Assembly: GCF_000720135.1 (NCBI RefSeq)
Contig: NZ_JOIU01000008.1
Location: 310,001-374,000, forward strand
Reading direction: 5' to 3'
DNA length: 64,000 nt
Source of the DNA: Streptomyces sp. NRRL S-1022
Lineage (GTDB): Bacteria; Actinomycetota; Actinomycetes; Streptomycetales; Streptomycetaceae
Shown: positions 6,588-27,638 of the stretch, piece after piece
Layout of the letters: every line of letters starts with the position of its first letter
How positions within the stretch are numbered: the first letter of the stretch is position 1
Notes under the pieces: model-generated
Database searches by the model: none
The model's input: only the letters and a program-made list of their open reading frames with translations
Told to the model about the DNA's origin: nothing
Translations under genes and position numbers: made by a program

Positions 6588-6606
6588 ATCTGACGGAGCG
6601 TCATAT
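6588..6606. promoter_or_regulatory. TGACG palindrome operator (site 1)
   Basis: ATCTGACGGAGCGTCATAT, core TGACG-GAG-CGTCA centred at 6597, between the divergent acyl-CoA dehydrogenase and thiolase genes. It is flanked by CCTCCCTA (6581) and TAGGGAGG (6607), which extend the symmetry and double as ribosome-site-like sequence for the leftward gene. Confidence 0.8.
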
Positions 6607-6648
6607 TAGGGAGGCCGGAACCAGATGCCCAGAGGGAGGAGCCCGCTC

Positions 6649-7821
6649 ATGAAGCGCGGGACCAGGAAGACCGCCGTGGTCGGCGTGGCGCTGTCCGACT
6701 GCGGACGGGTGGCCGGCCCGACGGCGTACGCCCTGCACGCCCAGGCCGCCCGCAGGGCGCTCGCCGACGCGGGTCTGGACCGCGCGGTGGTCGACGGCTT
6801 CGCGTCGGCAGGCCTCGGCACACTGGCCCCGGCGGAGGTCGCCGAGTACCTGGGGCTGCGCCCCGCCTGGGTGGACTCCACCTCGGTCGGCGGCGCGACC
6901 TGGGAGGTCATGGCGGCGCACGCGGCGGACGCGATAGCGGCGGGCCACGCGAACGCCGTGCTGCTGGTGTACGGCTCCACGGCCCGGGCGGACATCCGGG
7001 CGGGCCGCCGCACGGGCACCCTGTCCTTCGGCGCCCGCGGCCCCCTCCAGTTCGAGGCACCGTACGGCCACACGCTGATCGCGAAGTACGCGATGGCGGC
7101 CCGCCGGCACATGATCGAGTACGGCACGACGGTCGAGCAGCTGGCGCAGGTGGCGGTCCAGGCCCGGGCGAACGCGTCCCTGAACCCGGAGGCGATGTTC
7201 CGCGACCCGGTCACCGTCGACGACGTGCTGTCCGGGCCGCTGATCGCGGACCCCTTCACCAGGCTGCACTGCTGTCTGCGCTCGGACGGCGGCGCGGCGG
7301 TGCTGCTGGCGGCCGAGGAGTACGTGCGGGACTGCCGTACGGCCCCCGTCTGGATCCTGGGCACCGGCGAGCACGTCTCCCACGCCGCGATGTCCGAGTG
7401 GCCGGACTTCACGGTCTCCCCGGCGGCGGTGAGCGGCCGGCTGGCCTTCGCCCGGGCGGGGGTGGCCCCGGCGGACGTCGACTTCGCGGAGATCTACGAC
7501 GCCTTCACCTACATGACCCTGGTGACCCTGGAGGACCTGGGCTTCTGCGCCAAGGGCGAGGGCGGGGCCTTCGTGGAGAAGGGCCGGCTGCTGGTGCGGG
7601 GCGGGGAGCTGCCGGTGAACACGGACGGGGGCGGGCTGTCGGCGCAGCACCCGGGGATGCGCGGGCTGTTCCTGCTGGTGGAGGCGGTCCGGCAGCTGCG
7701 CGGTGAGGCCGGGGAGCGCCAGGTGCGGCGCCGGGACGGCGGGTTGCCCCGGCTGGGGGTGGCGTCCGGGACCGGGGGGTGGTTCTGCTCATCGGGGACG
7801 GTGGTGCTGGGGAAGGACTGA
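6649..7821 (+). CDS. Thiolase-fold lipid-transfer protein (Ltp2-like aldolase)
   Basis: A 390-residue member of the SCP-2 thiolase/Ltp family. The usual nucleophilic Cys region reads DSTSVGGATWE, with no Cys, and the thiolase HDxF motif reads EIYDAFT, with Tyr for His. Both changes fit the Ltp2 group, which carries out retro-aldol cleavage of beta-hydroxyacyl-CoA with a DUF35 partner rather than thiolysis. DGGGLSAQHPGMRG is the C-terminal active-site loop. I prefer ATG 6649 (GGGAGGA 8 nt upstream) over ATG 6625. Divergent from an acyl-CoA dehydrogenase across operator 1. The DUF35 partner candidate lies at 9107-9526. Confidence 0.85.
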   Translation: MKRGTRKTAVVGVALSDCGRVAGPTAYALHAQAARRALADAGLDRAVVDGFASAGLGTLAPAEVAEYLGLRPAWVDSTSVGGATWEVMAAHAADAIAAGHANAVLLVYGSTARADIRAGRRTGTLSFGARGPLQFEAPYGHTLIAKYAMAARRHMIEYGTTVEQLAQVAVQARANASLNPEAMFRDPVTVDDVLSGPLIADPFTRLHCCLRSDGGAAVLLAAEEYVRDCRTAPVWILGTGEHVSHAAMSEWPDFTVSPAAVSGRLAFARAGVAPADVDFAEIYDAFTYMTLVTLEDLGFCAKGEGGAFVEKGRLLVRGGELPVNTDGGGLSAQHPGMRGLFLLVEAVRQLRGEAGERQVRRRDGGLPRLGVASGTGGWFCSSGTVVLGKD

Positions 7822-7849
7822 GCCGGGAGCCAGCGGTGATACTCGCCCC

Positions 7850-8518
7850 ATGGAACAGCACGATCTCCACGAACTGCTCCGCTCGCTGCGGGTCTGGGAC
7901 CCCGAGGCGACCCGGCTGCCGCCCTTCGACCCCGACACGGCCCCTCCCACGCCGCTGGCCCTGTTCACGAGCTGGTTCGCGGAGGCGGTGGCCGCGGGGC
8001 AGCCGGAGCCGCACACCATGTCGCTGGCGACCGCGGACGAGGAGGGCAGGCCGGACGTCCGGATCGTGATGCTGCACGGCGCCGACCCGGACGGCTGGTC
8101 CTTCGCCACGCACGCCACCAGCCGCAAGGGCCGCGCGCTGAGCGCCCGGCCGTACGCGGCCCTCGCCTTCTACTGGCCGGTGCTGGGCCGCCAGGTGCGG
8201 GTCCGGGGGCCGGTCGCCTCGGCGCCGTCCGAGGAGAGCCAGGCCGACCTGCACGCGCGGTCCACGGGTGCGCTGGCCGCCGCGCTGACCGGCCGGCAGA
8301 GCGAGGAGCTGTCCTCGGTGGAGGAGCTGCGGCGGGTGTCGGAGGCGGCCTGGGAGCGGGCCCGGGCCCATCCCGAGGAGCCGTCGCCGACCTGGACGCT
8401 GTACCGGCTGCGCCCGGAGAGCGTGGAGTTCTTCCAGGGGGACCCGCAGCGGCGGCACGTACGCCTGGAGTACCGCAGCACCGGGTTCGGCTGGAGCAGG
8501 ACGCTGCTGTGGCCGTAG
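7850..8518 (+). CDS. Pyridoxamine 5'-phosphate oxidase-family FMN protein
   Basis: A 222-residue PNPOx-like protein, distinct from the housekeeping PdxH at 44.5-45.2 kb. It keeps the PdxH layout: HTMSLATADEEGRPDVRIVMLH, GWSFATHATSRKGRAL, LAFYWPVLGRQVRVRGPV, and a C-terminal WTLYRLRPESVEFFQGDPQRRH. PdxH proteins have FFTNYxSRKG and EFWQG(R) at these places, so FMN binding is probable but the substrate may differ (PhzG-like enzymes belong here). The ATG at 7850 follows the thiolase stop by 28 nt, so it may be in the same transcript. Confidence 0.85.
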   Translation: MEQHDLHELLRSLRVWDPEATRLPPFDPDTAPPTPLALFTSWFAEAVAAGQPEPHTMSLATADEEGRPDVRIVMLHGADPDGWSFATHATSRKGRALSARPYAALAFYWPVLGRQVRVRGPVASAPSEESQADLHARSTGALAAALTGRQSEELSSVEELRRVSEAAWERARAHPEEPSPTWTLYRLRPESVEFFQGDPQRRHVRLEYRSTGFGWSRTLLWP

Positions 8519-8619
8519 GAGGTTCCGCCCCGCACAAGTCCTCCGCGCCGCCGGTCACACTTCTCCCGTGCCGTCCGTCAGGGCAGTGACAGCGCCACAC
8601 GAGTCCTGAGGAGACGGCG

Positions 8620-9126
8620 ATGGAGAAGCGTCCGGTCACGGCGGAGGTCCCGATGGCACCCCGGATGCCCGAGGACCCCGCACAGCTGGTGCCCGAGCTG
8701 GCGGAGGTGTCGGCGGCCCTGTTCCGGGTCACCGGCAACGGTTCGGTGCCGCGCTCCACGATCGGCCTGGTCCAGCTGCGGGCCGGGCAGATCGTGGGCA
8801 GCACCTACCTGGCCGTCCTGCACACCGGGTTCCTGCGCAAGGCCGGGGAGTCGGAGGAGCGGATCGCATCGGTGGCGTGCTGGTGGGACTCGCCGTACTT
8901 CACGGCCGCCGAGCGGGCCGCGCTGGCCCTGGTGGAGGCGGTGCTCCAGCCGTCCGCGGGCGGCGAGCGGGTCTCCGACGAGCTGTACGCGCGGGCGGCC
9001 GGGCACTACGAGGGCAAGGCGCTGGCCACGCTGATGTTCGCGATCGGCCAGGTCGGCTTCTTCGTCCCGGTCGCGCTCGTTGCCAAGCCGGTGCCGGGCC
9101 GGTCGTTCACCGACCCGTGGAACTGA
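8620..9126 (+). CDS. Carboxymuconolactone decarboxylase/AhpD-like protein lacking the redox cysteines
   Basis: A 168-residue all-helical CMD/AhpD-fold protein (RMPEDPAQLVPELAEVSAALFR; CWWDSPYFTAAERAALALVEAV; LMFAIGQVGFFV). The family's active-site stretch, normally NGCxYCxxxH, reads VGSTYLAVLHT: both Cys are replaced (Ser and Leu) while the His stays. It therefore cannot act as an AhpD-type thiol peroxidase. GAGGAGACGG lies upstream of ATG 8620. Its last 20 nt overlap the end of the convergent DUF35 gene. Confidence 0.8.
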   Translation: MEKRPVTAEVPMAPRMPEDPAQLVPELAEVSAALFRVTGNGSVPRSTIGLVQLRAGQIVGSTYLAVLHTGFLRKAGESEERIASVACWWDSPYFTAAERAALALVEAVLQPSAGGERVSDELYARAAGHYEGKALATLMFAIGQVGFFVPVALVAKPVPGRSFTDPWN

Positions 9127-9526
9127 CGGCCCCCGGGGCCGCCCGGAACACCGGGATCCCGTCCCGGAACGCCACCTCCAGCGGCATGCCGGCCCGCACG
9201 GTGTCCGCCGGGCAGTCCACCAGTTCCGTCATCATCCGGGGGCCCTCGGCCAGGTCGACCACCGCGGCCAGGTAGGGGACGCGGCCGGTGAACGGGGGGA
9301 GGTCGTTGTGGTGGACCGCGGACCACGTGTAGAGCGCGGCCCGGCCGCTCGCCTCCTCCCAGGCCACCTCCTCGCTCCAGCAGTGCGGGCAGAACTCCCG
9401 CGGGTAGTGGTGGGCCCGGCGGCAGGCCCCGCAGCGGCGGATCAGCAGCCGGCCCCGGGCCGCCGCCTCCCAGTAGGGGCGGGTGAGGGCGTCGGCCTCG
9501 GGGAGGTCGTGGCGCGGGCCGTCCAT
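9107..9526 (-). CDS. DUF35 OB-fold/zinc-ribbon acyl-CoA-associated protein
   Basis: A 139-residue DUF35 protein. The N-terminal rubredoxin-like zinc ribbon has RRCGACRRAHHYPREFCPHC (two CxxC knuckles); the C-terminal OB-fold has LYTWSAVHH and PYLAAVVDLAEGPRMMTEL. DUF35 proteins are obligate partners of Ltp-type thiolase-fold aldolases, binding the CoA moiety; the probable partner is the gene at 6649. Its ATG overlaps the DoxX stop, so it is the second gene of that operon. Confidence 0.9.
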   Translation of the reverse strand: MDGPRHDLPEADALTRPYWEAAARGRLLIRRCGACRRAHHYPREFCPHCWSEEVAWEEASGRAALYTWSAVHHNDLPPFTGRVPYLAAVVDLAEGPRMMTELVDCPADTVRAGMPLEVAFRDGIPVFRAAPGAVSSTGR

Positions 9527-9975
9527 CAGAACCACCCCAGCGCCGCGTCCAGCGACCACGTCTGCCAGGACATGCCGAAGAAGCCGGTCAGGGAGATCAG
9601 GGCCATCATCGAGTTCTGGCCCTGCTCCGCCCAGTCGTGGACCATGAGGACGAAGTAGACGGCGTTGAGGAGCAGGCCGCCGATCAGCGCGACCGGGGTC
9701 AGGAAGCCGGCGATCAGGCCGAGTCCCAGGGACAGTTCGGCGTAGGCGACCACGTACGCCATCAAGCGGGGGCGGGGTGCGACCACCGTCTCGAAGCCCG
9801 CCCGGACCGGGGCCCACCGGTGTCCCGCCGCCACGTCCGCCGCCCAGGCGATGCCGCTGCCCCGCTCGAACCAGGCCTTCTTGTCCTTGTGCCGCCAGCT
9901 CTCCAGCCACCACAGGCCCAGACCGATCCGCAGCGCCGCCAGCCATCGCGCGCCGTCGAGCCATATCGAGTCCAT
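9526..9975 (-). CDS. DoxX-family membrane protein
   Basis: A 149-residue DoxX/DoxD-type membrane protein with four hydrophobic segments (about 10-24, 70-92, 95-113, 125-142). DoxX proteins are linked to quinone, sulfur or oxidative-stress redox and occur in several actinobacterial catabolic clusters; the exact role here is unknown. The palindrome ATCTGACGGTACGTCAGAT ends 2 nt before the ATG, and no Shine-Dalgarno can be seen, so the mRNA may be leaderless. First gene of an operon with DUF35. Confidence 0.85.
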   Translation of the reverse strand: MDSIWLDGARWLAALRIGLGLWWLESWRHKDKKAWFERGSGIAWAADVAAGHRWAPVRAGFETVVAPRPRLMAYVVAYAELSLGLGLIAGFLTPVALIGGLLLNAVYFVLMVHDWAEQGQNSMMALISLTGFFGMSWQTWSLDAALGWF

Positions 9976-9977: not shown

Positions 9978-9996
9978 ATCTGACGGTACGTCAGAT
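9978..9996. promoter_or_regulatory. TGACG palindrome operator (site 2, best match)
   Basis: ATCTGACGGTACGTCAGAT, a perfect 19-bp palindrome apart from the central triplet, centred at 9987. It touches the start codon of the doxX-like gene and lies 146 bp before the divergent flavin monooxygenase. Confidence 0.85.
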
Positions 9997-11348: not shown

Positions 11349-11367
11349 TCCTGACGGTCCGTCAGTT
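11349..11367. promoter_or_regulatory. TGACG palindrome operator (site 3)
   Basis: TCCTGACGGTCCGTCAGTT, core TGACG-GTC-CGTCA centred at 11358, upstream of the NDP-forming acyl-CoA synthetase. Confidence 0.8.
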
Positions 11368-11372: not shown

Positions 11373-11391
11373 ACCTGACAAAGCGTCAGCT
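11373..11391. promoter_or_regulatory. TGACA/CGTCA palindrome operator (site 4)
   Basis: ACCTGACAAAGCGTCAGCT, centred at 11382, 24 bp from site 3. Together they make a tandem operator before the acyl-CoA synthetase start. Confidence 0.75.
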
Positions 11392-11434
11392 ACAGCTGGC
11401 CGTCATGGCTGTCTCACAGGAGGCGGGCGGAACG

Positions 11435-13654
11435 ATGCTCGGATCGACACACGGCACCCTCACCACCGACTCCCGCCGGGCCCGCGTCATCGCCTGCGGC
11501 GAGCAGCGGCCCGGCCCCGCCGTCCACGACCGGGTGGCGGACCTCGACGTCAGCGGGCGCCCGCTCCACGCGGACGTACCCGACCTGAGCCGCTTCTTCC
11601 GGCCGGAGTCGGTCGCCGTGATCGGCGCGTCGGACGCCGAGGGCCGGCCGAACACCGGGATCACCCGGCAGCTGCTGGACTGGGCCGGGCGGGTCGGGGC
11701 ACGGGTGCATCCGGTGCACCCGACCCGGCCGTCGGTCTTCGGGCTGCCCTGCGTGCCCGGCATCGCCGAACTGCCCGAAGAGGTCGACCTGGCCGTCCTG
11801 CTGGTGGCCGACCCGCTCCCGCTGATCGGGGAACTCGGCGAGGCGAAGGTGAAGTTCGCGGTCGCCTTCGCCTCGGGGTTCGCGGAGACCGGGGAGGCCG
11901 GCGCCGCGGCGCAGGAGCGGCTGGCCGGGGCCGTACGGCGCTCGGGGCTGCGGCTGCTCGGGCCGAACACCAACCTCAACGCCTTCGAACGGTTCCGGGA
12001 GGACCTGTCCGGGCCGGCCGTCGCGCTGATCACCCAGTCCGGACACCAGGGCCGGCCCGTCTTCGCCCTGCAGGAACTCGGCGTCCGGCTCTCGCACTGG
12101 GCGCCCACCGGCAACGAGGCCGACCTGGAGACCGCCGACTTCCTCTCCTGGTTCGCCGAGCAGCCCGAGGTCGGGGCGATCGCCTGCTACGTGGAGGGGC
12201 TCAAGGACGGGCGCGCCTTCCTGCTGGCCGCGGACCGGGCCGCCCGCCGCGGGGTTCCGGTGGTCGCCGTGAAGGTGGGCCGCACCGAGACGGGCGCCCG
12301 GACGGCCGCCTCGCACACCGGCAAGCTCACCGGCGCGGACGACGTGGTGGACGCGGCCCTGCGGCAGTACGGCGTGATCCGCGTCGACGCCCTGGACGAA
12401 CTCCAGGACACCGCGGCCCTGCTGGCGCGGGCCCGGGCACCCCTGGCGGACGGCGTGGTCGTCTACTCCATCTCGGGCGGCACCGGCGCGCACGTCGCCG
12501 ACCTGGCCGCCGGGGCGGGGCTGCGGCTGCCGCGGCTGTCCCCGCAGAAGCAGGCCGAGCTGCACCAGTGGATACCGGAGTACCTGCACGTGGCCAACCC
12601 GGTGGACAACGGCGGCCATCCGGTCGGCGACGCGCGCGGCCGGAAGATCATCGACGCGATCCTGGCCGATCCCGCGGTCGGCGTCCTGGTCTGCCCGGTG
12701 ACCGGCCCCTTCCCGCCGCTGAGCGACAGGCTCGTACGCGACCTGGTGGCCGCCGCCGAGGAGACGGACAAGCTGGTGTGCGTGGTGTGGGGCTCGCCGG
12801 TGGGCACGGAGGCGGCGTACCGGGAGGTGCTGCTCGGCTCGTCGCGCGTGGCCACCTTCCGCACGGTGGGCAACTGCCTCACCGCGGTCCGCGCCTGGCT
12901 GGACCACCACCGCTTCGTGAGCGACTACCGCTCCCCCTTCGACGAGGCCCCGCGCACCCCGTCCCCCTCCTGCCGCAAGGCCGAGGCGCTGATGCAGCCC
13001 GGTCACCGGCTGAGCGAGCACGCGGCCAAGCAGCTGCTGCGGGCGTACGGCATCCGGGTGCCGCGCGAGCAGCTGGTGACCAGCGCGGCGGCGGCCGTAC
13101 GGGCGGCCGGGCAGGTGGGCTACCCGGTGGTGATGAAGGCGTCCGGCGCGCAGATCGCCCACAAGACCGAACTGGGCCTGGTGAAGATCGGCCTGACCTC
13201 GGCGAGCCAGGTCCGCGACGCGTACCGCGAGCTGACCGACATCGCCCGGTACGAGGGGGTCGGTCTGGACGGGGTCCTGGTGTGCCAGATGGTCGGGCAG
13301 GGCGTGGAGATGATGGCCGGCGTCACCCACGACGACCTCTTCGGGCCGACGGTGACGGTCGGGCTCGGCGGGATCCTGGTGGAGGTGCTGCGCGACGCGG
13401 CGGTGCGCGTGCCGCCCTTCGGCGAGGACCAGGCCCGCGCCATGCTCGGCGAACTGCGCGGCCGGGCCCTGCTGTCCGGCGTCCGCGGTCGCCCGCCGGC
13501 CGACGTGGAGGCGCTGGTGGAGGTGATCCTCCGGGTGCAGCGCATGGCGCTGGAACTCGGTGACTCGATCGCGGAGCTGGACATCAACCCGCTGATGGTG
13601 CTGCCCCGGGGGCAGGGAGCGGTGGCGCTGGACGCGCTGGTGGTGTGCCGGTGA
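11435..13654 (+). CDS. NDP-forming acyl-CoA synthetase (fused alpha-beta, ATP-grasp)
   Basis: A 739-residue fused acyl-CoA synthetase of the acetate-CoA ligase (ADP-forming) type, which also includes protein acetyltransferases. Order: CoA-binding Rossmann domain (about 45-180, FFRPESVAVIGASDAEG), two succinyl-CoA-synthetase flavodoxin-like domains (about 190-500, ITQSGHQGRPVF, SHTGKLTGADDVVDAAL), ATP-grasp_5 domain (about 520-739, GYPVVMKASGAQIAHKTELG, AELDINPLMV). It could activate a carboxylic acid to its CoA ester, or act in reverse. I chose ATG 11435, with AGGAGG about 11 nt upstream. The next gene overlaps by GTGA. Confidence 0.87.
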   Translation: MLGSTHGTLTTDSRRARVIACGEQRPGPAVHDRVADLDVSGRPLHADVPDLSRFFRPESVAVIGASDAEGRPNTGITRQLLDWAGRVGARVHPVHPTRPSVFGLPCVPGIAELPEEVDLAVLLVADPLPLIGELGEAKVKFAVAFASGFAETGEAGAAAQERLAGAVRRSGLRLLGPNTNLNAFERFREDLSGPAVALITQSGHQGRPVFALQELGVRLSHWAPTGNEADLETADFLSWFAEQPEVGAIACYVEGLKDGRAFLLAADRAARRGVPVVAVKVGRTETGARTAASHTGKLTGADDVVDAALRQYGVIRVDALDELQDTAALLARARAPLADGVVVYSISGGTGAHVADLAAGAGLRLPRLSPQKQAELHQWIPEYLHVANPVDNGGHPVGDARGRKIIDAILADPAVGVLVCPVTGPFPPLSDRLVRDLVAAAEETDKLVCVVWGSPVGTEAAYREVLLGSSRVATFRTVGNCLTAVRAWLDHHRFVSDYRSPFDEAPRTPSPSCRKAEALMQPGHRLSEHAAKQLLRAYGIRVPREQLVTSAAAAVRAAGQVGYPVVMKASGAQIAHKTELGLVKIGLTSASQVRDAYRELTDIARYEGVGLDGVLVCQMVGQGVEMMAGVTHDDLFGPTVTVGLGGILVEVLRDAAVRVPPFGEDQARAMLGELRGRALLSGVRGRPPADVEALVEVILRVQRMALELGDSIAELDINPLMVLPRGQGAVALDALVVCR

Positions 13655-14439
13655 GCGAGGCCGTACGCCACGAGATCCGCGACGGCGTCGCGTACCTCAC
13701 CCTGAACCGGCCGGAGTCCCTGAACGCCCTCACCCCGGCCATGCGCGACCGCCTCGTCGACCTGCTGGCGGAGGCGTCCGCGGCCCCGGACGTCCGGGCG
13801 GTGGTCCTCACGGGTACCGGGCGGGGCTTCTGCGCGGGTGCGGACCTGCGGGGCGGGGCCGGTCCCGGCGACCGGGTCCCGGGTGATGTGGCACGGCTGC
13901 TGCGGCTGGGGGCGCAGCGGCTGATCTGTGCCGTGCTGGACTGCGAGAAGCCGGTGCTGGCCGCGGTGAACGGCACGGCGGCCGGCCTCGGCGCGCATCT
14001 GGCCTTCGCCTGCGACCTGGTGCTGGCCGCCGAGTCGGCCCGCTTCGTCGAGGTCTTCGTCCGCCGCGGCCTGGTCCCGGACGCGGCCGGCGCCTACCTC
14101 CTGCCCCGGCTGATCGGCCCGCAGCGGGCGAAGGAGCTGATGTTCTTCGGCGACGCGGTGCCGGCTCCGGAGGCGCACCGTCTGGGCCTGGTCAACCGGG
14201 TCGTCCCGGATCCGGGCCTGCCGGCGGCGACCCTGGAGTGGGCGACCCGTCTGTCGGCCGGCCCGACGAGGGCCCTGGCCCTGGCCAAGCAGCTCCTGAA
14301 CATCTCCCTGGACACCGACCGCGCCTCCGCCCTCGCGGCGGAGGCCTGGGCCCAGGAGATCAACATGACGACGGCGGACGCCGGGGAGGGCCTGCGGGCC
14401 TTCGCGGAGCGCCGGGACGCGCGGTTCCGGGGCCGGTGA
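13651..14439 (+). CDS. Enoyl-CoA hydratase/isomerase-family protein
   Basis: A 262-residue crotonase. Oxyanion-hole motifs are CAGADLRGG (about 64) and NGTAAGLGAHLAFACDLVLA (about 110-130); the second catalytic-Glu position reads RRGLVPDAAGAYLLP, i.e. Asp instead of the usual Glu. It hydrates a 2-enoyl-CoA or does a related reaction. The GTG at 13651 overlaps the stop of the acyl-CoA synthetase (GTGA), so the two are translationally coupled under operators 3 and 4. Confidence 0.88.
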   Translation: MSEAVRHEIRDGVAYLTLNRPESLNALTPAMRDRLVDLLAEASAAPDVRAVVLTGTGRGFCAGADLRGGAGPGDRVPGDVARLLRLGAQRLICAVLDCEKPVLAAVNGTAAGLGAHLAFACDLVLAAESARFVEVFVRRGLVPDAAGAYLLPRLIGPQRAKELMFFGDAVPAPEAHRLGLVNRVVPDPGLPAATLEWATRLSAGPTRALALAKQLLNISLDTDRASALAAEAWAQEINMTTADAGEGLRAFAERRDARFRGR

Positions 14440-14455: not shown

Positions 14456-14474
14456 ATCTGACATTCCGTCAGCT
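14456..14474. promoter_or_regulatory. TGACA/CGTCA palindrome operator (site 5)
   Basis: ATCTGACATTCCGTCAGCT, centred at 14465, between the hydratase stop and the flavin reductase start (14486), 11 nt before the ATG. Confidence 0.78.
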
Positions 14475-18818: not shown

Positions 18819-19868
18819 TCAGAAGGTGAGCACCGCCCGCGCCACCCGGCCCGCCTCCGCCTCCGCCCGGGCCTTCTCGAAGTCCTCCACCGGATACGTG
18901 GCGGTCACCAGCTCGTCCAGCAGGAGCCGCCCCTGCCGGTACAGCTCGGCGTACAGGGCGATGTCCCGCTGGGGCCGCGAGGAGCCGTAGCGGCAGCCCA
19001 GGACCGACTTGTCCAGGTAGAGGGAGGAGACCAGGAAGGACGCCTCGGCCGTGGCCGGGGGCACGCCGAGCAGCACCGCCTGGCCGTGCCGGTCGAGCAG
19101 GTCGACGGCCCGGCGGATCAGCTCCACCCGGCCCACGCACTCGAAGACGTGGTCGGCCCCCGTCGGCAGCAGGTCCCGCACCCCCTGCGCCGACGTCAGG
19201 AAGTCGGTGGCGCCGAACCGCCGGGCCGTCTCCTCCTTAGCCGGGTTGGCGTCCACGGCCACGATGCGCAGGGCGCCCGCGAGCCGCGCGCCCTGGAGGA
19301 CGTTCAGCCCGATCCCGCCCGTGCCGATGACGACCACGCTGTCCCCGCGGTCCACCCGGGCCCGGTTCAGCACCGCGCCGACCCCGGTGAGCACCCCGCA
19401 CCCGATCAGCGCGGCGGACGTCAGCGGGATGTCGTCGGGGATCCGCACCGCCTGCACGGCCTTGACGACCGTGCGTTCCGCGAAGGCCGAGTTCGCGGCG
19501 AACTGGTACACCGGCTCCGCACCCCGTGTGAACGGCTGCCCCGGACGCCCGATCGCCCGCCGGCACATGGTCGGCCGCCCCCGGTCGCACTCCGCGCAGG
19601 TACCGCAGTTGGCGAGCGTGGACAGGGCGACGTGGTCACCGGGTGCGACATGGGTGACGCCCGCGCCCACGGCCTCCACGACCCCGGCACCCTCATGGCC
19701 GAGCACCACCGGTACGGGGAACGGGATGGTGCCGTCCACCACCGACAGGTCGCTGTGGCACAGTCCGGCCGCCGCGATCGCGACCAGCACCTCCCCCGGC
19801 CCGGGCTCCCGTACCGCCAGGTCGTCGACGACCCGGACCTGCCCGCCGTCGAACACCACACCACGCAT
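18819..19868 (-). CDS. Zinc-dependent alcohol dehydrogenase (MDR superfamily)
   Basis: A 349-residue medium-chain dehydrogenase. Catalytic zinc ligands lie in GLCHSD (Cys, about 37) and GHEGAG (His, about 59); the structural zinc loop CGTCAECDRGRPTMC has four Cys (about 88-102). NAD-binding GTGGIGLNVLQGA is at about 180. It probably oxidises a hydroxyl intermediate. The ATG overlaps the stop of the acyl-CoA dehydrogenase upstream (TGATG), and together with the SDR gene they make a three-gene leftward operon from the operators at 22061/22077. Confidence 0.9.
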   Translation of the reverse strand: MRGVVFDGGQVRVVDDLAVREPGPGEVLVAIAAAGLCHSDLSVVDGTIPFPVPVVLGHEGAGVVEAVGAGVTHVAPGDHVALSTLANCGTCAECDRGRPTMCRRAIGRPGQPFTRGAEPVYQFAANSAFAERTVVKAVQAVRIPDDIPLTSAALIGCGVLTGVGAVLNRARVDRGDSVVVIGTGGIGLNVLQGARLAGALRIVAVDANPAKEETARRFGATDFLTSAQGVRDLLPTGADHVFECVGRVELIRRAVDLLDRHGQAVLLGVPPATAEASFLVSSLYLDKSVLGCRYGSSRPQRDIALYAELYRQGRLLLDELVTATYPVEDFEKARAEAEAGRVARAVLTF

Positions 19869-21016
19869 CACACGGCCCCCTTCGGCTCGGCCGGCAGACC
19901 GAGCACGCGCTCGGCGACGATCGTGCGCTGGATCTGGTCCGAGCCGCCGTAGATGGTGTCGGCCCGGGAGAACAGGAACAGGTGCTGGGCCGCGTCCAGC
20001 GGGTACGGCGACCCGGCCGACCAGTCCGCGGGCCCCACGGCCGCCGCCGCGCCCCGGACCTCGACCGCCAGCTCGCCCAGCCGCTGGTGCCAGGCGGACC
20101 ACAGCAGCTTGGCCACACTGGGCGCGCCGGGGCCGGCCGGGCCGCCGAGGGTGCGCAGGGCGTTCCAGCGCATGACCCGCAGCTCGGCCCACTGGCGTAC
20201 CAGCCGGGCGCGCAGCACCGGGTCGTGTACGGCCCCGCTCGCCACGGCGGCGTCGAGGACCTGCGCCAGCTCCCGGGCGAAGCCGATCTGCTGGGCCAGG
20301 GTCGACACCCCGCGCTCGAAGCCGAGCAGGCTCATCGCCACCCGCCAGCCGTTCCCCTCCCCGCCGACGACGTGCTCCGCGCGCGCGTGTGCCCCGTCGA
20401 AGAAGACCTCGTTGAAGTCGCTCGTGCCGGTCAGCTGCCGGATGGGCCGGACGTCGATCCGGCCGGGCTGGTCCATCGGCACGAGCAGGAAGCTCAGCCC
20501 GTGGTGCCGCCGGGCGGCCGGGTCGGTCCGGGCCAGCACGAAACACCAGTCGGCCTCATGGGCGAGCGAGGTCCAGATCTTCTGCCCGCTGATCCGGTAG
20601 CGGTCGCCGTCCCGCACCGCCGCCGTCCGCACCCCGGCGAGATCGGACCCGGCACCGGGTTCGCTGTACCCCTGGCACCACAGCTCCTCGCCGGCGGCGA
20701 CCGGAGGCAGGAACCGGCTCTTCTGCTCCTCGCTGCCGTGCGCGAGGAGGGTGGGCGCCAGCAGGTTCTCCCCGATGTGCCCGGAGCGCGGGGGCGCCCC
20801 CGACCGGGCGTACTCCTCGGCCCACACGACCTGCTGGGTGAGGGTGCCGGTGCGGTTGCCGTACCCCGACTCCGGCCACCCGAGCCCGATCCAGCCGGCG
20901 GCACCGAGGGTCCGCTCCCAGTCCCGCCGCGCCCCGGTGGCACCGGCACGCTCCCCCAGCCAGCCCCGGACCTCGGCCCGGAACGCCTCGTCCTCGGCGG
21001 TGAATCCAAAGTCCAC
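19868..21016 (-). CDS. Acyl-CoA dehydrogenase, large-subunit type without canonical C-terminal Glu
   Basis: A 382-residue acyl-CoA dehydrogenase with a full flavin-binding beta domain (WCQGYSEPGAGSDLAGVRTAA, SGQKIWTSLAHEADWCF) and C-terminal FAD/dimer signature (GGSDQIQRTIVAERVLGLP). The position that carries the catalytic Glu in many family members (YEGT) reads YGGS. The sequence type matches subunits of mycobacterial two-subunit (alpha2beta2) dehydrogenases of steroid side-chain oxidation. I chose GTG 21016 (MDFGFTAEDEAF) because AGGAGG sits 6 nt upstream; ATG 21031 lies on top of that site. Partner may be the gene at 5390-6574. Confidence 0.88.
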   Translation of the reverse strand: MDFGFTAEDEAFRAEVRGWLGERAGATGARRDWERTLGAAGWIGLGWPESGYGNRTGTLTQQVVWAEEYARSGAPPRSGHIGENLLAPTLLAHGSEEQKSRFLPPVAAGEELWCQGYSEPGAGSDLAGVRTAAVRDGDRYRISGQKIWTSLAHEADWCFVLARTDPAARRHHGLSFLLVPMDQPGRIDVRPIRQLTGTSDFNEVFFDGAHARAEHVVGGEGNGWRVAMSLLGFERGVSTLAQQIGFARELAQVLDAAVASGAVHDPVLRARLVRQWAELRVMRWNALRTLGGPAGPGAPSVAKLLWSAWHQRLGELAVEVRGAAAAVGPADWSAGSPYPLDAAQHLFLFSRADTIYGGSDQIQRTIVAERVLGLPAEPKGAV

Positions 21017-21045
21017 AGGGTTCCTCCTCATAGCACCGGTGCCGG

Positions 21046-21085
21046 CCAAGGGGCGCGGGGAACCGCGCGACCGGCCACCACGCAC
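21046..21085. repeat. Streptomyces intergenic repeat (GGGGCGCGGGGAA type)
   Basis: The 103-nt gap between the SDR stop and the dehydrogenase start holds AAGGGGCGCGGGGAACCGCG followed by CGACCGGCCACCACGCA. The same word occurs at 39758 and, inverted, at 39711. I recall this as a very common Streptomyces intergenic repeat; the function is not settled. Confidence 0.55.
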
Positions 21086-21119
21086 CCGCAACCGCCGCAC
21101 CACAACGCGCCCCGGGCTC

Positions 21120-22031
21120 TCAGGCGTTCGGCCTGCCCCCACGCCGCGCCGCCTCCTCCATCGCCCCCAGCTCGGAGAGCATCCGCATCGGATCCACCCC
21201 CACCGACCCCGGCAGCACCTCGGCGATCCGCTCCGGCGTCCACCCGTCGAAGGCGTACGCGGCACGCAGTTCCCTCGGCTGTGCCCACACCGCGATCTTC
21301 GGCCCGGCGATCGTGTACACCTGCCCCGTGATGCCCTGCGCGGCGGCCCGTTCGGACAGCAGGTACACCACCAGCGCGGCCACGTCCTCCGGCTCGCCGA
21401 TCTCCGCGAGTTCCATCGGCACGTTCGCCGACATCCGGGTGCGGGCCACCGGCGCCACCGCGTTCGCGGTCACGCCGTACTTGTGCAGTCCCAGGGCCGC
21501 GCTGCGGACCAGGGAGATGATGCCGCCCTTGGCCGCGCTGTAGTTGGCCTGCGAGACGGACCCCTGGTGGTTGCCGCTGGTGAAGCCGATGAGGGTGCCG
21601 GACCGTTGCGCGCGCATGACGGCCGAGGCGGCCCGGAACACGGTGAAGGTGCCCTTCAGGTGGGTGGCGACGACCGGGTCCCACTCCTCCTCGGTCATGT
21701 TGAACAGCATGCGTTCGCGCAGGATGCCCGCCACGCACACGACACCGTCGAGCCGGCCGTGGGCCCGCACCGCCGTGTCCACGACCCGCTGCCCCCCGGC
21801 CATGGTGGAGATGTCGTCGGCGACCGCGACGGCCTCCCCGCCCGCCGCCTCGATCTCCTTGACGACGGCCTGCGCGATCTCGCTGGTGGGTGAGGCGCCG
21901 TCCACCGCCACGCCGTAGTCGTTGACGACGACCTTCGCCCCTTCGGCCGCCGCCGCCAGCGCCACCGCCCGTCCGATACCGCGCCCGGCCCCCGTCACGG
22001 CGATGACCCTGCCTGCCAAGAAGTTCCCCAC
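21120..22031 (-). CDS. Short-chain dehydrogenase/reductase (HSD17B4/MFE-like)
   Basis: A 303-residue SDR. Cofactor motif TGAGRGIG (about 14), NDYGV and DDIS nucleotide-specificity region, catalytic Ser in GFTSGNHQG and YSAAKGG. The insert NDYGVAVDG and the long C-terminal part (AWAQPRELRAAY... DPMRMLSELGAMEEAARR) are like the 3-hydroxyacyl-CoA dehydrogenase domain of peroxisomal multifunctional enzyme and its actinobacterial steroid-cluster relatives. First gene of the three-gene operon with the dehydrogenase and alcohol dehydrogenase. Two operators lie directly upstream. Confidence 0.9.
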   Translation of the reverse strand: MGNFLAGRVIAVTGAGRGIGRAVALAAAAEGAKVVVNDYGVAVDGASPTSEIAQAVVKEIEAAGGEAVAVADDISTMAGGQRVVDTAVRAHGRLDGVVCVAGILRERMLFNMTEEEWDPVVATHLKGTFTVFRAASAVMRAQRSGTLIGFTSGNHQGSVSQANYSAAKGGIISLVRSAALGLHKYGVTANAVAPVARTRMSANVPMELAEIGEPEDVAALVVYLLSERAAAQGITGQVYTIAGPKIAVWAQPRELRAAYAFDGWTPERIAEVLPGSVGVDPMRMLSELGAMEEAARRGGRPNA

Positions 22032-22051: not shown

Positions 22052-22070
22052 TTCTGACGGTTCGTTAGAT
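22052..22070. promoter_or_regulatory. TGACG palindrome operator (site 6)
   Basis: TTCTGACGGTTCGTTAGAT, core TGACG-GTT-CGTTA centred at 22061, in the 102-bp gap between the SDR and cyclase genes. One arm has CGTTA for CGTCA. Confidence 0.72.
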
Positions 22071-22086
22071 TGACGGTCCGTTAGAT
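22068..22086. promoter_or_regulatory. TGACG palindrome operator (site 7)
   Basis: GATTGACGGTCCGTTAGAT, centred at 22077, 16 bp from site 6 so that the outer arms overlap by 3 bp. Also with CGTTA in one arm. Confidence 0.72.
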
Positions 22087-22133: not shown

Positions 22134-23060
22134 ATGGCACTGGCGGAGGAGTTCCACGAGATCGCGGGGCGCGTGAACAACTGGGGGCGCTGGGGCGCCG
22201 ACGACGAGACCGGCACCCTGAACCTGGTCACGGACGAGGTGGTGCGCGCGGCCGCCGCCGAGGTGCGCACCGGCCGCCGCGTGCCGCTCGCGCTCCCCCT
22301 CCGGCAGGACGGCGTGCAGACGGGCGTGATCCCGGGCCGGGTCAACCCGCTGCACGTGATGGTGCAGCTCAACCAGGAGCTGTTCGGGCCGGGGACGGTG
22401 GCGTGCAGCGACGACGTGGTCACCATGGGCCTGCAGGCCGGCACCCACTGGGACGCGCTGCCCCATGTGTCGCACTCCGGGAAGCTCTACAACGGCCGTC
22501 CGGCGCACACGGTCACCGCGCACGGCGGCGCGGAGTTCGCCGGCATCGACAAGGTGCGCCACCTCGTCTCGCGCGGGGTCCTGCTGGACGTGGCACGCGC
22601 GCGCGGGGTGGACCGGCTGGCGGGCGGCCACGCGGTGTCGCCGGAGGACCTGGAGGCGGCCGAGGAGTTCGCCGGTACGCGCGTGCGTGCCGGTGACGTC
22701 GTGCTGGTACGGACCGGGCAGGTGCAGCTGTATCTGGCCGGGGACAGGCACGGGTACGGCCATCCGTCGCCGGGGCTGTCGGTGCGCTGCCCGGAGTGGT
22801 TCCACGCGCGCGATGTGGCGGCGGTCGCGAACGACACGCTCACCTTCGAGGTGTTCCCGCCCGAGGTCGAGGACCTGTGGCTGCCCGTGCACGCCCTGCA
22901 CCTGGTGGAGATGGGGATGCTGCAGGGCCAGAACTGGAATCTCGAAGAGTTGTCCACAGCCTGTGGAGAAGCGGGGCGGTACGCGTTCCTGCTGTCGGCG
23001 ACGCCCGAGCCCTTCGTGGGCGCGACGGGCACACCGGTGGCACCGGTGGCGATCCTCTGA
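22134..23060 (+). CDS. Cyclase-family metal hydrolase (kynurenine formamidase-like)
   Basis: A 308-residue protein of the cyclase/KynB fold (Pfam cyclase family). Metal-binding signature is LQAGTHWDALPHVSHSG (about 102-118), the family's HxGTHxDxPxH with the first His replaced by Gln. It may hydrolyse an amide or lactone-like bond. Starts at ATG 22134 after CGGGGAGGCACCGG. Divergent from the SDR operon and sharing operators 6 and 7, so probably part of the same catabolic regulon. Confidence 0.87.
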   Translation: MALAEEFHEIAGRVNNWGRWGADDETGTLNLVTDEVVRAAAAEVRTGRRVPLALPLRQDGVQTGVIPGRVNPLHVMVQLNQELFGPGTVACSDDVVTMGLQAGTHWDALPHVSHSGKLYNGRPAHTVTAHGGAEFAGIDKVRHLVSRGVLLDVARARGVDRLAGGHAVSPEDLEAAEEFAGTRVRAGDVVLVRTGQVQLYLAGDRHGYGHPSPGLSVRCPEWFHARDVAAVANDTLTFEVFPPEVEDLWLPVHALHLVEMGMLQGQNWNLEELSTACGEAGRYAFLLSATPEPFVGATGTPVAPVAIL

Positions 23061-23973: not shown

Positions 23974-24369
23974 GGACTGTGACTCCCTTGCGAGACAGCA
24001 TGGTTGACGTACAGTCACCCCAACAAGCGCTTCGGGCATATTCCCGCGCGAAGGAGTACGCCTGAGGCATACTGTGCGACGCTCGTGCCGGGGAGTCGAA
24101 CAAGCGGCGGTCACGGCCGCGACCGCCCCGCGAACAGCGGCGCGCACCGCGCGGTCCGGCACCGTCCCAGGGGGACCGCCGGCCCGGCTCGTACGCGCAG
24201 CCACTCGCATCCCACACAAGGTACCGGAGCACCCGCCCGACTCCAGGCCGTGACGAGTCTCAAGCAGGACACAACCCGGTATCAACGCTCCGTGATTCCA
24301 GTGCGCCACGATCCGCGACATCGTAGGCCAAGGCTTTCCGGTGCCGCGGTCCGGGACACCACCGTCGGG
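23974..24369. other. 396-nt intergenic region with palindromes, no gene seen
   Basis: Holds TGACGTACAGTCA at 24005-24017, one base off the regulon core, 32 nt before the small-peptide start, and a 19-bp near-palindrome AGTACGCCTGAGGCATACT at 24055-24073. No frame with convincing codon usage. The right part abuts the 3' end of an acyl-CoA dehydrogenase gene. Confidence 0.45.
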
Positions 24370-25236
24370 TCAGCCCGCCAGCGCGGCGGCGAGCAGCTCC
24401 GCGCCCTGTGCGCTCCCCCCGGCGCGCCCGGCCCGCACCCAGGCCCGTTTCAGGTGCAGGTGCACGTCCGCCTCCCAGGTGAAGCCCATGCCGCCGTGCA
24501 CCTGGAGGCAGTCGCGCGCCCCCTGCACGGCGGCCTCGTCGGCGAGCAGCCGGGCGGCGGCGATGTCGGCGGGGTCGGCGGTGACGGCGGCGGCGTAGAC
24601 GGCGACCCGGGCGGTCTCGGCCCGCACCAGCAGGTCGGCGCACAGGTGCTGGACGGCCTGGAAGGCACCGATCGGCCGTCCGAACTGCTCGCGCCGCCGG
24701 GCGTGTTGCACGGCCAGCTCGCACACCCGTCCAGCCGTGCCCAGCTGTTCGGCGGCGGTGAGCAGGACGGCGACGGGTTCCGGTGGACCGGGGGCCGGCA
24801 CCCGGTGCAGCGGGGTCAGCGGGTCCACCGACCGCAGCGGTACGGCACCGGAGACGTCCCCGCGGACCACGTCGGCCGCGTCCAGCCACTCCGCCAGCTC
24901 CCCGTCGACGGCGGCCACGACCGTCTCTCCGCGCGCCGCGCCCGGCACGTCCGCGGCCGCGAGGTGCGTGGCGACCAGCGGCCCGGGCAGCAGCGCCCGG
25001 CCCGCCTCCTCGAACACCAGCACCGCCTCGGGCAGCCCCAGTCCGACCCCGCCGTCCGCCTCGGGCAGCCGCAGGGCGAAGAACCCGGCCTCGCCGAGGG
25101 TCCGCCACAGGGCCCGGTCGAGCCGGCCGGGCGCGTCGACGGCGGCGCGCAGCGCCTCCCGGCCGAAGCACCGCCCCAGCAGCTCCCGCGTGCCCGCCCG
25201 CAGGGCGTTCTGGTCGTCCGTGAGCCGGAAGCGCAC
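24370..25236 (-). CDS. Acyl-CoA dehydrogenase family, short subunit
   Basis: A 288-residue acyl-CoA-dehydrogenase-fold protein, about 90-100 residues shorter than usual. It has the N-terminal helices (RLTDDQNALRAGTRELLGR), a shrunken beta domain (ETVVAAVDGELAEWLDAADVV) and the C-terminal FGRPIGAFQAVQHLCADLLV and VHGGMGFTWEADVHLHLKRA. Shortened subunits occur as non-FAD-binding partners in alpha2beta2 dehydrogenases. The upstream gene, overlapping at GGTGACC, encodes the likely partner. I prefer GTG 25236 with GGGGGAGG 5 nt upstream; GTG 25242 (GTGA overlap) is possible. Confidence 0.85.
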   Translation of the reverse strand: MRFRLTDDQNALRAGTRELLGRCFGREALRAAVDAPGRLDRALWRTLGEAGFFALRLPEADGGVGLGLPEAVLVFEEAGRALLPGPLVATHLAAADVPGAARGETVVAAVDGELAEWLDAADVVRGDVSGAVPLRSVDPLTPLHRVPAPGPPEPVAVLLTAAEQLGTAGRVCELAVQHARRREQFGRPIGAFQAVQHLCADLLVRAETARVAVYAAAVTADPADIAAARLLADEAAVQGARDCLQVHGGMGFTWEADVHLHLKRAWVRAGRAGGSAQGAELLAAALAG

Positions 25237-25238
25237 GG

Positions 25239-26372
25239 TCACCTCCCCCTGGGCAGGCCGAGGATCCGCTCGGCCACGATGGTGCGCTGGATCTGCGAGG
25301 TGCCGGCGGCGATCGTGTACGCCAGCGAGGACAGCCGGTCGAGCACCCAGGGGCGGTCCAGGTCCAGGCCGTCCGGGCCGAGGACCTCCGCGGCGGCGTC
25401 GTACAGGTCCTGCCGGGCGTGCGAGTAGCGGAGCTTGAACACCGAGCCGCCCGGGCCCGGCACCCCGCCGTTCGCCTCCGCCGCGCTCACGTTCCACTGG
25501 ACCAGCCGCCACAGCGCCCGGAACTCCGCGTCGAGCCGGCCCAGCCGGCGGCGCAGCGCGGGATCGCCCCAGCGTCCGTTGTCGCGTGCCGCGCGGGCGA
25601 GTCCGGCGAGGACGCGGCGGCAGGCGACGACCTCGCCGACGAACGCGGTGCCGCGTTCGAAGGAGAGGGTGACCAGGGTGACGCGCCAGCCGTCGTTCTC
25701 CTCCCCCACCCGGTTGGCGGCCGGCACCCGCACCTCGTCCAGGAACACCTCGGCGAACTCCGCCGACCCGGCCAGGGTGCGCAGCGGCCGCACGGTGACG
25801 CCCTCGGCGTCCATCGGCAGGGCCAGCCAGGTGAGGCCCCGGTGCCGGGGCGCGGCGGGGTCGGTGCGGACCAGCAGCTCGCACCAGTCGGCGACTTCGG
25901 CGTGCGAGGTCCAGATCTTGGCCCCGGTCACCACGTAGGCGTCGCCGTCCCTCCGCGCGCGCGTGCGCAGCGACGCGAGGTCGGAACCGGCGTCCGGTTC
26001 GCTGAATCCCTGGCACCACACCTGCTCGCCGCGCAGGATCGGCGGCAGCCAGCGCGCCCGCTGCCCGGCGGTGCCCTCGGCGGCGATCGTCGGCCCGGCG
26101 TGCAGCAGTCCGACGAAGTTGGCGCCCACGTAGGGCGCGCCCGCCTGCTCGGTCTCCTCCAGGAAGATCAGCCGGAGGGTCGGGGAGGCGTCCCAGTGCA
26201 CGTGGGCGTACCCGGCGTCGTACAGCATCCGCTGCCAGCCGAGGTCGTAGGCGCGGCGGCCGGGCCAGTCGCCGGGCGGGGGTGCGGCCGGCAGGGTGGG
26301 CAGTACCGTGCCGAGCCACTCGCGCAGCCGGGCCCGGAACTCCTCCTCCTCGGGCGTGCAGGAGAGGTCCAC
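25239..26372 (-). CDS. Acyl-CoA dehydrogenase, large-subunit type
   Basis: A 377-residue acyl-CoA dehydrogenase with complete flavin-binding domain (WCQGFSEPDAGSDLASLRTRA, VVTGAKIWTSHAEVADWCEL) and AGTSQIQRTIVAERILGLP at the end. The catalytic-Glu position (YEGT in many members) reads AAGT. Starts with GTG 26372 overlapping the amidohydrolase stop (TAG/GTG). Together with the short subunit downstream it looks like a heterotetrameric dehydrogenase, as in steroid side-chain catabolism; the pairing is inference from order and sequence type. Confidence 0.88.
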   Translation of the reverse strand: MDLSCTPEEEEFRARLREWLGTVLPTLPAAPPPGDWPGRRAYDLGWQRMLYDAGYAHVHWDASPTLRLIFLEETEQAGAPYVGANFVGLLHAGPTIAAEGTAGQRARWLPPILRGEQVWCQGFSEPDAGSDLASLRTRARRDGDAYVVTGAKIWTSHAEVADWCELLVRTDPAAPRHRGLTWLALPMDAEGVTVRPLRTLAGSAEFAEVFLDEVRVPAANRVGEENDGWRVTLVTLSFERGTAFVGEVVACRRVLAGLARAARDNGRWGDPALRRRLGRLDAEFRALWRLVQWNVSAAEANGGVPGPGGSVFKLRYSHARQDLYDAAAEVLGPDGLDLDRPWVLDRLSSLAYTIAAGTSQIQRTIVAERILGLPRGR

Positions 26373-27568
26373 TAGCGGTCCAGGTCCAGGCCGAGCATGC
26401 GGATGGCGTTGCCCCGCATCAGCTTGTACACGGTCTCGTCGTCGAGGCCCCGCACATGGTCGAGGGCGACCTCCCTGGTGTGCGGGAAGGTCGAGTCGAC
26501 GTGCGGGTAGTCGGTCTCGAAGGTGGCGTTGTCGCGGCCGACCACGTCGAGCGAGGCGACGCCGTGCTTGTCGCGGAAGAAGCAGCAGTAGATCTGCCGG
26601 TAGTAGTACGTCGAGGGCGGCTCGGGGATCAGGTCCCGGACCCCGCCCCAGGCGCGGTGCTCCTCCCACACGTCGTCGGCGCGTTCCAGGGCGTACGGGA
26701 TCCAGCCCATCTGGCCCTCCGAGTAGGCCAGGGTGAGCCGCGGGAAGCGCACCAGGACCCCGCTGAAGAGGTAGTCCATCATCGAGGCCATGGCGTTGTT
26801 GAAGCTCAGGGAGGCCTGGACGGCGGGCGGTGCGTCGGGGGAGGCGGCGGGCATCTGGGAGCTGCTGCCGATGTGCATGTTGACGACCGTGCCGGTCTCC
26901 TGGCAGACGGCGAAGAACGGGTCCCAGTGGCCGGAGTGGATGGAGGGCAGCCCGAGATGGGTGGGGATCTCGGAGAAGGTGACGGCCCGCACCCCGCGCG
27001 CGGCGTTGCGCCGGATCTCGGCGACGGCCAGATCGACGTCCCACAGCGGGATCAGGCACAGCGGGATCAGCCGGCCGCCGCTGTCCCCGCACCACTCCTC
27101 CACCATCCAGTCGTTGTAGGCGCGGACGCAGGCGAGGGCGACCTCCTTGTCGTGGGCCTCGGCGAAGGTCTGCCCGCAGAAGCGCGGGAAGGTCGGGAAG
27201 CAGAGGGAGGCCTCGACGTGGTTGAGGTCCATGTCCTTGAGGCGCTCGGCCGGGTCCCAGCACCCGGGGCGCATCTGCTCCCGGGTGATCCCCTCCAGGG
27301 TCATCTCGTCCCGGTCGAAGCCGACGGCGGCGATGTTCCGCTTGTACGGGAACTTCAGGTCCTCGTAGATCCACCAGTCGGTGGGCTGGCCCTGCGGGTC
27401 CATGGTGATCTGGTACTTCCCGCCGACGTAGGCCAGTTCGCCGATCCCGGCGGTCAGCGGCCGCGGCCCCCGGTCCCGGTACTTGGCGGGCAGCCACGTC
27501 CCGAAGAGGTGCGCGGGCTCGATCACGTGGTCGTCGACGCTGATGATGCGGGGCAGTTCGGTCGCCAT
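26372..27568 (-). CDS. Amidohydrolase-2 family metal-dependent hydrolase/decarboxylase
   Basis: A 398-residue TIM-barrel amidohydrolase (PF04909-type). Metal motif at the N-terminus is SVDDHVIEP (DxH-like), mid-barrel MHIGSSSQMP (His), and the C-terminal metal Asp lies in FETDYPHVDSTFP. The family includes decarboxylases and ring-opening hydrolases; many copies occur in actinobacterial steroid and aromatic clusters with no known substrate. ATG 27568 is the first gene of a three-gene leftward operon with two acyl-CoA dehydrogenases, under operators 8 and 9. Confidence 0.88.
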   Translation of the reverse strand: MATELPRIISVDDHVIEPAHLFGTWLPAKYRDRGPRPLTAGIGELAYVGGKYQITMDPQGQPTDWWIYEDLKFPYKRNIAAVGFDRDEMTLEGITREQMRPGCWDPAERLKDMDLNHVEASLCFPTFPRFCGQTFAEAHDKEVALACVRAYNDWMVEEWCGDSGGRLIPLCLIPLWDVDLAVAEIRRNAARGVRAVTFSEIPTHLGLPSIHSGHWDPFFAVCQETGTVVNMHIGSSSQMPAASPDAPPAVQASLSFNNAMASMMDYLFSGVLVRFPRLTLAYSEGQMGWIPYALERADDVWEEHRAWGGVRDLIPEPPSTYYYRQIYCCFFRDKHGVASLDVVGRDNATFETDYPHVDSTFPHTREVALDHVRGLDDETVYKLMRGNAIRMLGLDLDR

Positions 27569-27592
27569 GGTCCCCTCCGCCGGACGGTACTT

Positions 27593-27611
27593 ATCTGATG
27601 GTCCGTCAGAT
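27593..27611. promoter_or_regulatory. TGAYG palindrome operator (site 8)
   Basis: ATCTGATGGTCCGTCAGAT, centred at 27602, in the 85-bp gap between the amidohydrolase and CoA ligase genes. Confidence 0.78.
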
Positions 27612-27619
27612 AGCATGGC

Positions 27620-27638
27620 AGCTGACGAGTCGTCAGCC
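27620..27638. promoter_or_regulatory. TGACG palindrome operator (site 9)
   Basis: AGCTGACGAGTCGTCAGCC, with a perfect GCTGACG-AGT-CGTCAGC dyad centred at 27629, 27 bp from site 8. Confidence 0.78.

Follow-up and report, generated by a model that had tools for sequence, protein, structure and literature searches.

What does a palindrome recurring before scattered acyl-CoA, redox, and hydrolase genes of a Streptomyces chromosome represent, and which protein reads it? The question is raised by a 64,000-nucleotide stretch of Streptomyces sp. NRRL S-1022, hereafter the window (positions 310001-374000 of contig C8, NZ_JOIU01000008.1; the genome comprises 8.9 Mb in 235 contigs), in which an earlier note had listed nine TGACRnnnCGTCA-type dyads. 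By examining their position, their conservation with the adjoining genes, and their distribution across genomes, we arrived with good confidence at the reading that the dyad is the operator of a TetR-family protein encoded at 2561-3208, which would repress a dispersed catabolic regulon and be released from DNA by a pathway intermediate. Below, labels beginning with G, C, L, and f denote genomes, contigs of this genome, loci, and families, respectively.

Nine dyads in the window and their predicted target genes

All nine dyad centers given in the earlier note are exact (6597, 9987, 11358, 11382, 14465, 22061, 22077, 27602, and 27629). The form proposed for them holds in outline and is slightly too strict: six of the nine are perfect TGAC-N5-GTCA dyads, and three (22061, 22077, and 27602) each have one changed arm base. 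The full dyad form is ATCTGACGNNNCGTCAGAT. The pattern TGACNNNNCGTYA gave 14 strand matches at 10 places in the window, against 0.62 expected, a count reached by none of 100 shuffles; CTGACNNNNCGTCAG was found eight times against 0.05 expected, with 0 of 100 shuffles reaching eight. The loose TGACN5GTCA pattern with one mismatch showed no enrichment in the window (21 matches against 18.7 expected) and was set aside for the stricter forms. The nine dyads are thereby confirmed as real and above the chance level. Two other places matching TGACNNNNCGTYA, both outside gene calls, were not counted: 24005, which adjoins no target start, and 38782, which lies upstream of a putative regulator-like gene. 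The dyads, the genes predicted to be their targets, and the proposed regulator are as follows; counts of loci refer to the Streptomyces comparison described below.

6591 to 6603: dyad 1, in the gap separating the acyl-CoA dehydrogenase start from the thiolase start; region conserved in 63/63 loci
9981 to 9993: dyad 2 (ATCTGACGGTACGTCAGAT), which has the best form and is 6 bp away from the start of the DoxX-like gene; 42/42 loci
11352 to 11364: dyad 3, 41 bp upstream of the NDP-forming acyl-CoA ligase start; 11/11 loci
11376 to 11388: dyad 4, 17 bp upstream of the same ligase start
14459 to 14471: dyad 5, 15 bp upstream of the flavin reductase start; dyad in one other genome (L245)
22055 to 22067: dyad 6, between the short-chain dehydrogenase/reductase (SDR) and cyclase-family starts
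22071 to 22083: dyad 7, same intergenic region as dyad 6
27596 to 27608: dyad 8, between the amidohydrolase and acyl-CoA ligase starts
27623 to 27635: dyad 9, same intergenic region as dyad 8; dyad in one other genome (L237)
4872 to 6574, minus strand: acyl-CoA dehydrogenase and F420H2-dependent quinone reductase-like gene (Pfam), inferred operon; dyad 1
6649 to 7821, plus strand: thiolase-like gene; dyad 1
9107 to 9975, minus strand: DoxX-like and ChsH2-type OB-fold genes, inferred operon; dyad 2
11405 to 14439, plus strand: NDP-forming acyl-CoA ligase and enoyl-CoA hydratase, inferred operon; dyads 3 and 4
14486 to 15085, plus strand: flavin reductase, HsaB-like, under the family cutoff; dyad 5
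18819 to 22031, minus strand: SDR, acyl-CoA dehydrogenase, and zinc alcohol dehydrogenase, inferred operon; dyads 6 and 7
22134 to 23060, plus strand: cyclase-family protein (PF04199); dyads 6 and 7
24370 to 27568, minus strand: amidohydrolase and two acyl-CoA dehydrogenases, inferred operon; dyads 8 and 9
27654 to 29165, plus strand: AMP-forming acyl-CoA ligase; dyads 8 and 9
2561 to 3208, plus strand: TetR-family regulator (PF19352, TetR_C_38), proposed dyad-binding protein
2553 to 2567: weak dyad (CTGACGACATGACAG, matching 10 of 12 fixed bases) that spans the TetR start codon, possible autoregulatory operator

Operon inference ties 16 genes to the dyads, in agreement with the earlier estimate of at least 15. 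Two of the products fall below NCBIfam equivalog cutoffs, namely, the HsaB-like protein (14486-15085; 193.9 bits against 230) and an IpdE2-like protein (5390-6574; 219.2 bits against 450).

The dyads lie 6 to 41 bp from the nearest chosen start, in six intergenic regions, and with the start codons chosen here none of the nine is in coding DNA, as the earlier note had judged by eye. This status depends on the choice of start, as mechanically taken longest open reading frames (ORFs) cover five of them (6597, 11358, 11382, 27602, and 27629). We then scanned positions 1-33418, 90% of which are coding by the gene calls used here, with a 19-bp matrix trained on the nine dyads and four sites lying upstream of the window. 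A matrix hitting coding DNA as often as promoters would have spoken against a regulon; 0 of 11 hits with a score of at least 8 were centered in coding DNA. A second matrix, built from 115 sites of other Streptomyces only, recovered at a score of at least 6 all nine dyads and a single extra match (38788) in the 64 kb; at a score of 8 it kept eight of the nine and lost 27629.

Conservation of the dyads with their genes

For comparison across species we used the best 80 of 550 named Streptomyces loci, all picked by the presence of the TetR gene, and asked for a dyad with 11 or 12 of the 12 fixed bases at −150 to +10 of a start. Such a dyad precedes the acyl-CoA dehydrogenase ACAD_G in 64/66 cases, Thiolase_H in 63/63, DoxX in 42/42, the NDP-forming ligase in 11/11, and, in a region upstream of the window, a FadD3-like ligase in 50/50 and its divergent thiolase in 50/51. 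Because divergent pairs have dyads in common, the count is better made per locus, which gives four conserved promoter regions (63/63, 50/51, 42/42, and 11/11). This test could be applied to the window regions at 6597, 9987, and 11358/11382 and to the one upstream region; the remaining three of the six window regions are too far from TetR for it. A dyad was seen in one other genome each for the flavin reductase (L245) and amidohydrolase/ligase (L237) regions and in none for the 22061/22077 region. At a threshold of at least 10 of 12, control promoters were largely free of dyads (afsK, 0/79; PNPox, 0/61; F420 protein, 0/65; OB_u, 0/52; Lrp, 0/32; LysE, 0/33; ECH, 0/13; OB_K, 2/46; FMO, 7/38), and random 160-bp pieces of the Streptomyces loci reached it in 161 of 4,000 cases, real sites included. 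The glyoxalase promoter, which occupies the same intergenic region as that of TetR, reached it in 69/82. Thus, almost every orthologous promoter that could be tested retains the dyad, the opposite of what would have refuted the earlier proposal of one regulon, which is supported both by this and by the absence of matrix hits centered in coding DNA within 1-33418.

Two genes considered as further targets found no support: OB_K as a separate target on its count of 2/46, and FMO, both on its count of 7/38 and because it is kept in three Streptomyces loci (L117, L137, and L149) that have neither island genes nor dyads while retaining afsK, glyoxalase, TetR, PNPox, and FMO. At one more locus (L154), the thiolase is only partial and there is no dyad.

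A TetR-family protein as the candidate regulator

On one point the earlier note can be amended: a probable regulator can be named from sequence, and the TetR protein encoded at 2561-3208 is likely to be what binds the dyads. Its C-terminal region matches PF19352 with 242.2 bits (Pfam cutoff, 23.9) and its N-terminal region matches TetR_N with 26.9 bits (cutoff, 24); among the 15 of 80 first-look candidates that were scored, PF19352 had one match in the genome at an E value of 1e-20. A single gene separates it from a kinase with PQQ repeats, which corresponds to the published location of SCO4421 near afsK.

The dyad also accompanies distant orthologs of this TetR. In 16 of 20 loci with such orthologs (31 to 52% identical), the 300 bp preceding the matched start contain a dyad with at least 10 of 12 fixed bases, compared with 227 of 3,495 random pieces drawn from the same loci (6.5%); within 65 bp, the figures are 12/20 and 57/3,553. 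The ATFYQYF stretch of the recognition helix is invariant in 19 orthologs, and TetR residues 1-71 hardly vary across the 19 Streptomyces genomes of our sample. The weak dyad at the TetR start is the tenth-best matrix place in 1-33418, with a score of 10 to 12 against at least 19.6 for the training sites, and CTGACGNCATGACAG (10 of 12) is found at the TetR start in 79 of the 80 Streptomyces loci. The promoter and first codons (window 2505-2585) are nearly invariant across the 80 loci, rare-looking synonymous codons included, and the nearly invariant block extends from about −55 to +24, again with its synonymous positions. The structure model of the protein (pLDDT, 91) has an all-helical TetR fold; EthR chains head the list of PDB matches, and FadR, FasR, and DesT entries, several solved with acyl-CoA, resemble it too.

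Site number also follows the regulator across genomes. Among 196 sampled genomes, the 39 with this TetR include 28 that have at least six exact sites, and none of the 157 without it reaches that number; the first figure becomes 23/34 when family f13 (see below) is left out and 7/15 when Streptomyces is left out as well. In family f14, the five genomes that encode the TetR hold 7 to 14 sites, and the three that lack it hold 0, 0, and 1. The TetR is present in all 19 Streptomyces genomes.

The regulon beyond the window

A second amendment to the earlier note is that the regulon is larger than the window. The sequence CTGACGNNNCGTCAG has 11 copies in the whole genome, against none for the reversed-pattern control, and six of these fall within 57 kb of C8 that include the island (binomial P of ~3e-11, for an interval picked post hoc); five fall within 42 kb (P of ~1e-9). 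A short distance upstream of the window's first position, a further four dyads (L023:5188, 8213, 16023, and 16050) precede two inferred operons (luciferase-like monooxygenase [LLM] oxidoreductase-amidohydrolase-aldehyde dehydrogenase and amidohydrolase-LLM-SDR), a ligase, and a pair of thiolase and DUF35 genes. The dyad-bearing ligase (L023:14409-15992) belongs to the FadD3 family by NCBIfam model NF005801 (802 bits against 657), and the adjacent thiolase and DUF35 genes (L023:16079-17647) resemble both chains of PDB entry 6ok1 (E = 2e-95 and 6e-19), the Ltp2-ChsH2 aldolase of steroid side chains, the aldolase activity of the pair itself being a prediction. One of these dyads (L023:8213-8225; C8:298213) lies in an intergenic region common to an amidohydrolase gene and an AfsR-like regulator with BTAD, NB-ARC, and TPR domains, which begins about 155 bp downstream (L023:8381); the same layout is seen in G096 and G187 (L235 and L258).

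Nine of the 11 exact genomic sites precede genes, two of them (C8:280461 and C19:160644) only with a downstream start chosen; one is coding (C7:126030), and one (C39:47449), outside called genes, has no nearby start. Looser copies elsewhere in the genome precede aldehyde dehydrogenase, acyl-CoA dehydrogenase, and SDR genes, and 10 of the 26 such places examined fall inside candidate ORFs (L007 and L021 only via an extended start), which suggests that the looser patterns hold many chance matches. Four other Streptomyces genomes have 67 exact sites, of which we examined 44 (all 20 of G096 and some of those in the other three, for the most part not in the island). A called start lies at −130 to +250 bp of 27 of them, and eight were flagged as coding, one of which (L236:1411) is the DoxX promoter. 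Targets recurring at exact sites in more than one genome are an SDR with its divergent partner, a polyketide cyclase-like protein, and two LLM proteins; a MaoC hydratase recurs too, its site in the present genome having a changed arm. A conserved protein of about 280 aa is divergent from an SDR across a dyad in four Streptomyces genomes (L234, L252, L259, and L007, the last being the present genome's copy at C8:280461) and has no Pfam match (L234 copy). In four Streptomyces (L215, L217, L219, and L225), the 15-mer occupies an identical position within one presumably CobO-like gene, where it encodes part of the peptide DGLTTRQRR; these are conserved coding matches and not operators.

Proposed mechanism and alternative explanations

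The computation shows where the sites lie, that they stand before chosen starts, that they are conserved along with the genes, and that they are linked to TetR; from this we infer binding itself, repression over activation, the ligand, and the substrate. A TetR dimer on an operator close to the start codons would block transcription, and dyads close to start codons are what repression would lead one to expect. The regulon would comprise acyl-CoA ligases, acyl-CoA dehydrogenases, SDRs, amidohydrolases, LLM/F420 oxidoreductases, and pairs of thiolase and DUF35 proteins. The DNA would be freed when an intermediate of the pathway binds the EthR-type ligand domain; the likeliest such ligand is a bulky acyl-CoA thioester derived from a steroid- or terpenoid-like compound. 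The FadD3-family ligase, the 6ok1-like pair, and the IpdE2- and HsaB-like proteins (the latter two below cutoffs) together suggest a CoA-dependent breakdown of a bulky ring compound.

Several observations weigh against this reading. The contrast in site number is weak in family f16; related genomes are not independent of one another, and the cut of six sites was set after the counts were known. Three of the 19 Streptomyces genomes (G134, G116, and G076) have the TetR with an unchanged recognition helix and only 1, 3, and 4 exact sites, respectively; of the seven of these eight sites that were fetched, three are inside genes, two precede unrelated starts, and two do neither, so that none of the seven precedes a gene of this regulon. 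Four of the distant loci (L188, L191, L195, and L196) have no dyad upstream of TetR, L188 having a near-perfect one before an amidohydrolase 64% identical to that of the window. The weak dyad at the TetR start is asymmetric and is missed by the relatives-only matrix. Finally, deletion of S. coelicolor SCO4421 is reported to give no visible phenotype (PMC3878966). The few-site genomes, along with the spore expression and lack of phenotype of SCO4421, suggest that the TetR has a second role or uses weaker sites missed by our pattern.

These points bear on the rival explanations. It is unlikely, on balance, that the TetR and the dyads are linked while the protein mainly serves sporulation, activating or timing genes with no response to a catabolic ligand: SCO4421 is described as spore expressed and lower in a whiA mutant (PMC3878966), and near invariance marks the TetR and its promoter throughout Streptomyces, strains without the island included, but the dyads lie near start codons as repression predicts, the targets are overwhelmingly catabolic, and the TetR model is nearest to ligand-binding repressors. 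We consider it rather improbable that the dyads mark one regulon read by some other regulator, be it another TetR of this genome or the product of one of two window genes, of AraC and Lrp type. The genome offers other candidates (127 TetR_N matches among the 150 of 330 candidates scored, with more possible), and this TetR persists in strains without the island and in the three with almost no sites; yet the dyad stands upstream of its ortholog in 16 of the 20 distant loci, site number tracks it over the 196 genomes, and the AraC gene is kept in L117, L137, and L149, all of which are without dyads.

That the palindrome is a repeat or terminator-like element and no operator is hardly credible for the present genome, where there are 11 copies against none in the control, located near starts, with AT-rich flanks, and kept promoter by promoter. 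The notion draws on family f13, in which the same 15-mer recurs in large numbers, partly at gene ends and inside genes. All five sampled f13 genomes (G012, G031, G046, G059, and G072) carry the PF19352 TetR and hold 109 to 218 copies of CTGACGNNNCGTCAG each (control, 0 to 1). Among 30 loci of G012 (L200, L205, L210, and L268-L294), five copies are flanked by convergent gene ends and another five adjoin the end of a single gene; 11 are near starts only, and nine are elsewhere or inside genes. In seven the palindrome contains a stop codon. The f13 copies are without the AT-rich flanks seen on operators and are probably a different element; these genomes were not counted as support, and the statistics are given with and without them. 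A joint reading, in which the PF19352 TetR went two ways, serving in Streptomyces and f14 a steroid- or terpenoid-like acyl-CoA regulon that is timed to sporulation and reaches the intergenic region of the AfsR-like regulator and in f13 acting as a chromosome-wide binder of the SlmA kind, strikes us as very unlikely; the missing AT-rich flanks speak against the f13 copies being bound.

Relationship to known systems

In the open-licence papers searched for the operator letters and the regulator, we found no account of a dyad operator or regulon of this kind, which accords with the earlier description of the system as undescribed, and SCO4421 appeared there only as a spore-expressed gene without phenotype. 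On the preferred reading, the TetR of all 19 sampled Streptomyces gains a probable operator, a regulon, and a testable class of inducer; scattered acyl-CoA, LLM/F420, and amidohydrolase genes become parts of a single probable pathway, which would act on a steroid- or terpenoid-like compound; and the dyad matrix could be used to find further genes of that pathway.

Several characterized regulators invite comparison. SCO4421, matched by position only, lies at the same place as the window TetR, close to afsK (SCO4423), and differs in having been published, as far as the accessible text goes, as a spore-expressed, phenotype-free gene without an operator or regulon (PMC3878966). EthR of Mycobacterium tuberculosis is the nearest fold (TM-score of 0.78 by query length) and the nearest solved sequence, but the sequence match spans residues 15-78 only, and the identity in the fold comparison is about 19%. 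The best NCBIfam match is the nucleoid occlusion factor SlmA, at 30.3 bits against a cutoff of 120 (NF007015). SRTF1 of Pimelobacter simplex, compared by description only, is likewise a TetR over steroid genes with a palindrome between its own gene and a ketosteroid dehydrogenase gene, though that palindrome is of 22 bp (PMC7062782). No chain named KstR was among the 23 PDB sequence matches of the window TetR (E value of 0.01), a search that involved no direct comparison with Rv3574. In its manner of working, KstR (Rv3574/MSMEG_6042) is the closest system: it is a TetR repressor with a palindrome near target starts, its own promoter among them, and a large, dispersed lipid and steroid catabolic regulon, and its operator is TnnAACnnGTTnnA (PMC1995591) rather than the CTGACGNNNCGTCAG found here. 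The mechanism that we propose would make this a conventional KstR-like TetR circuit with a different operator.

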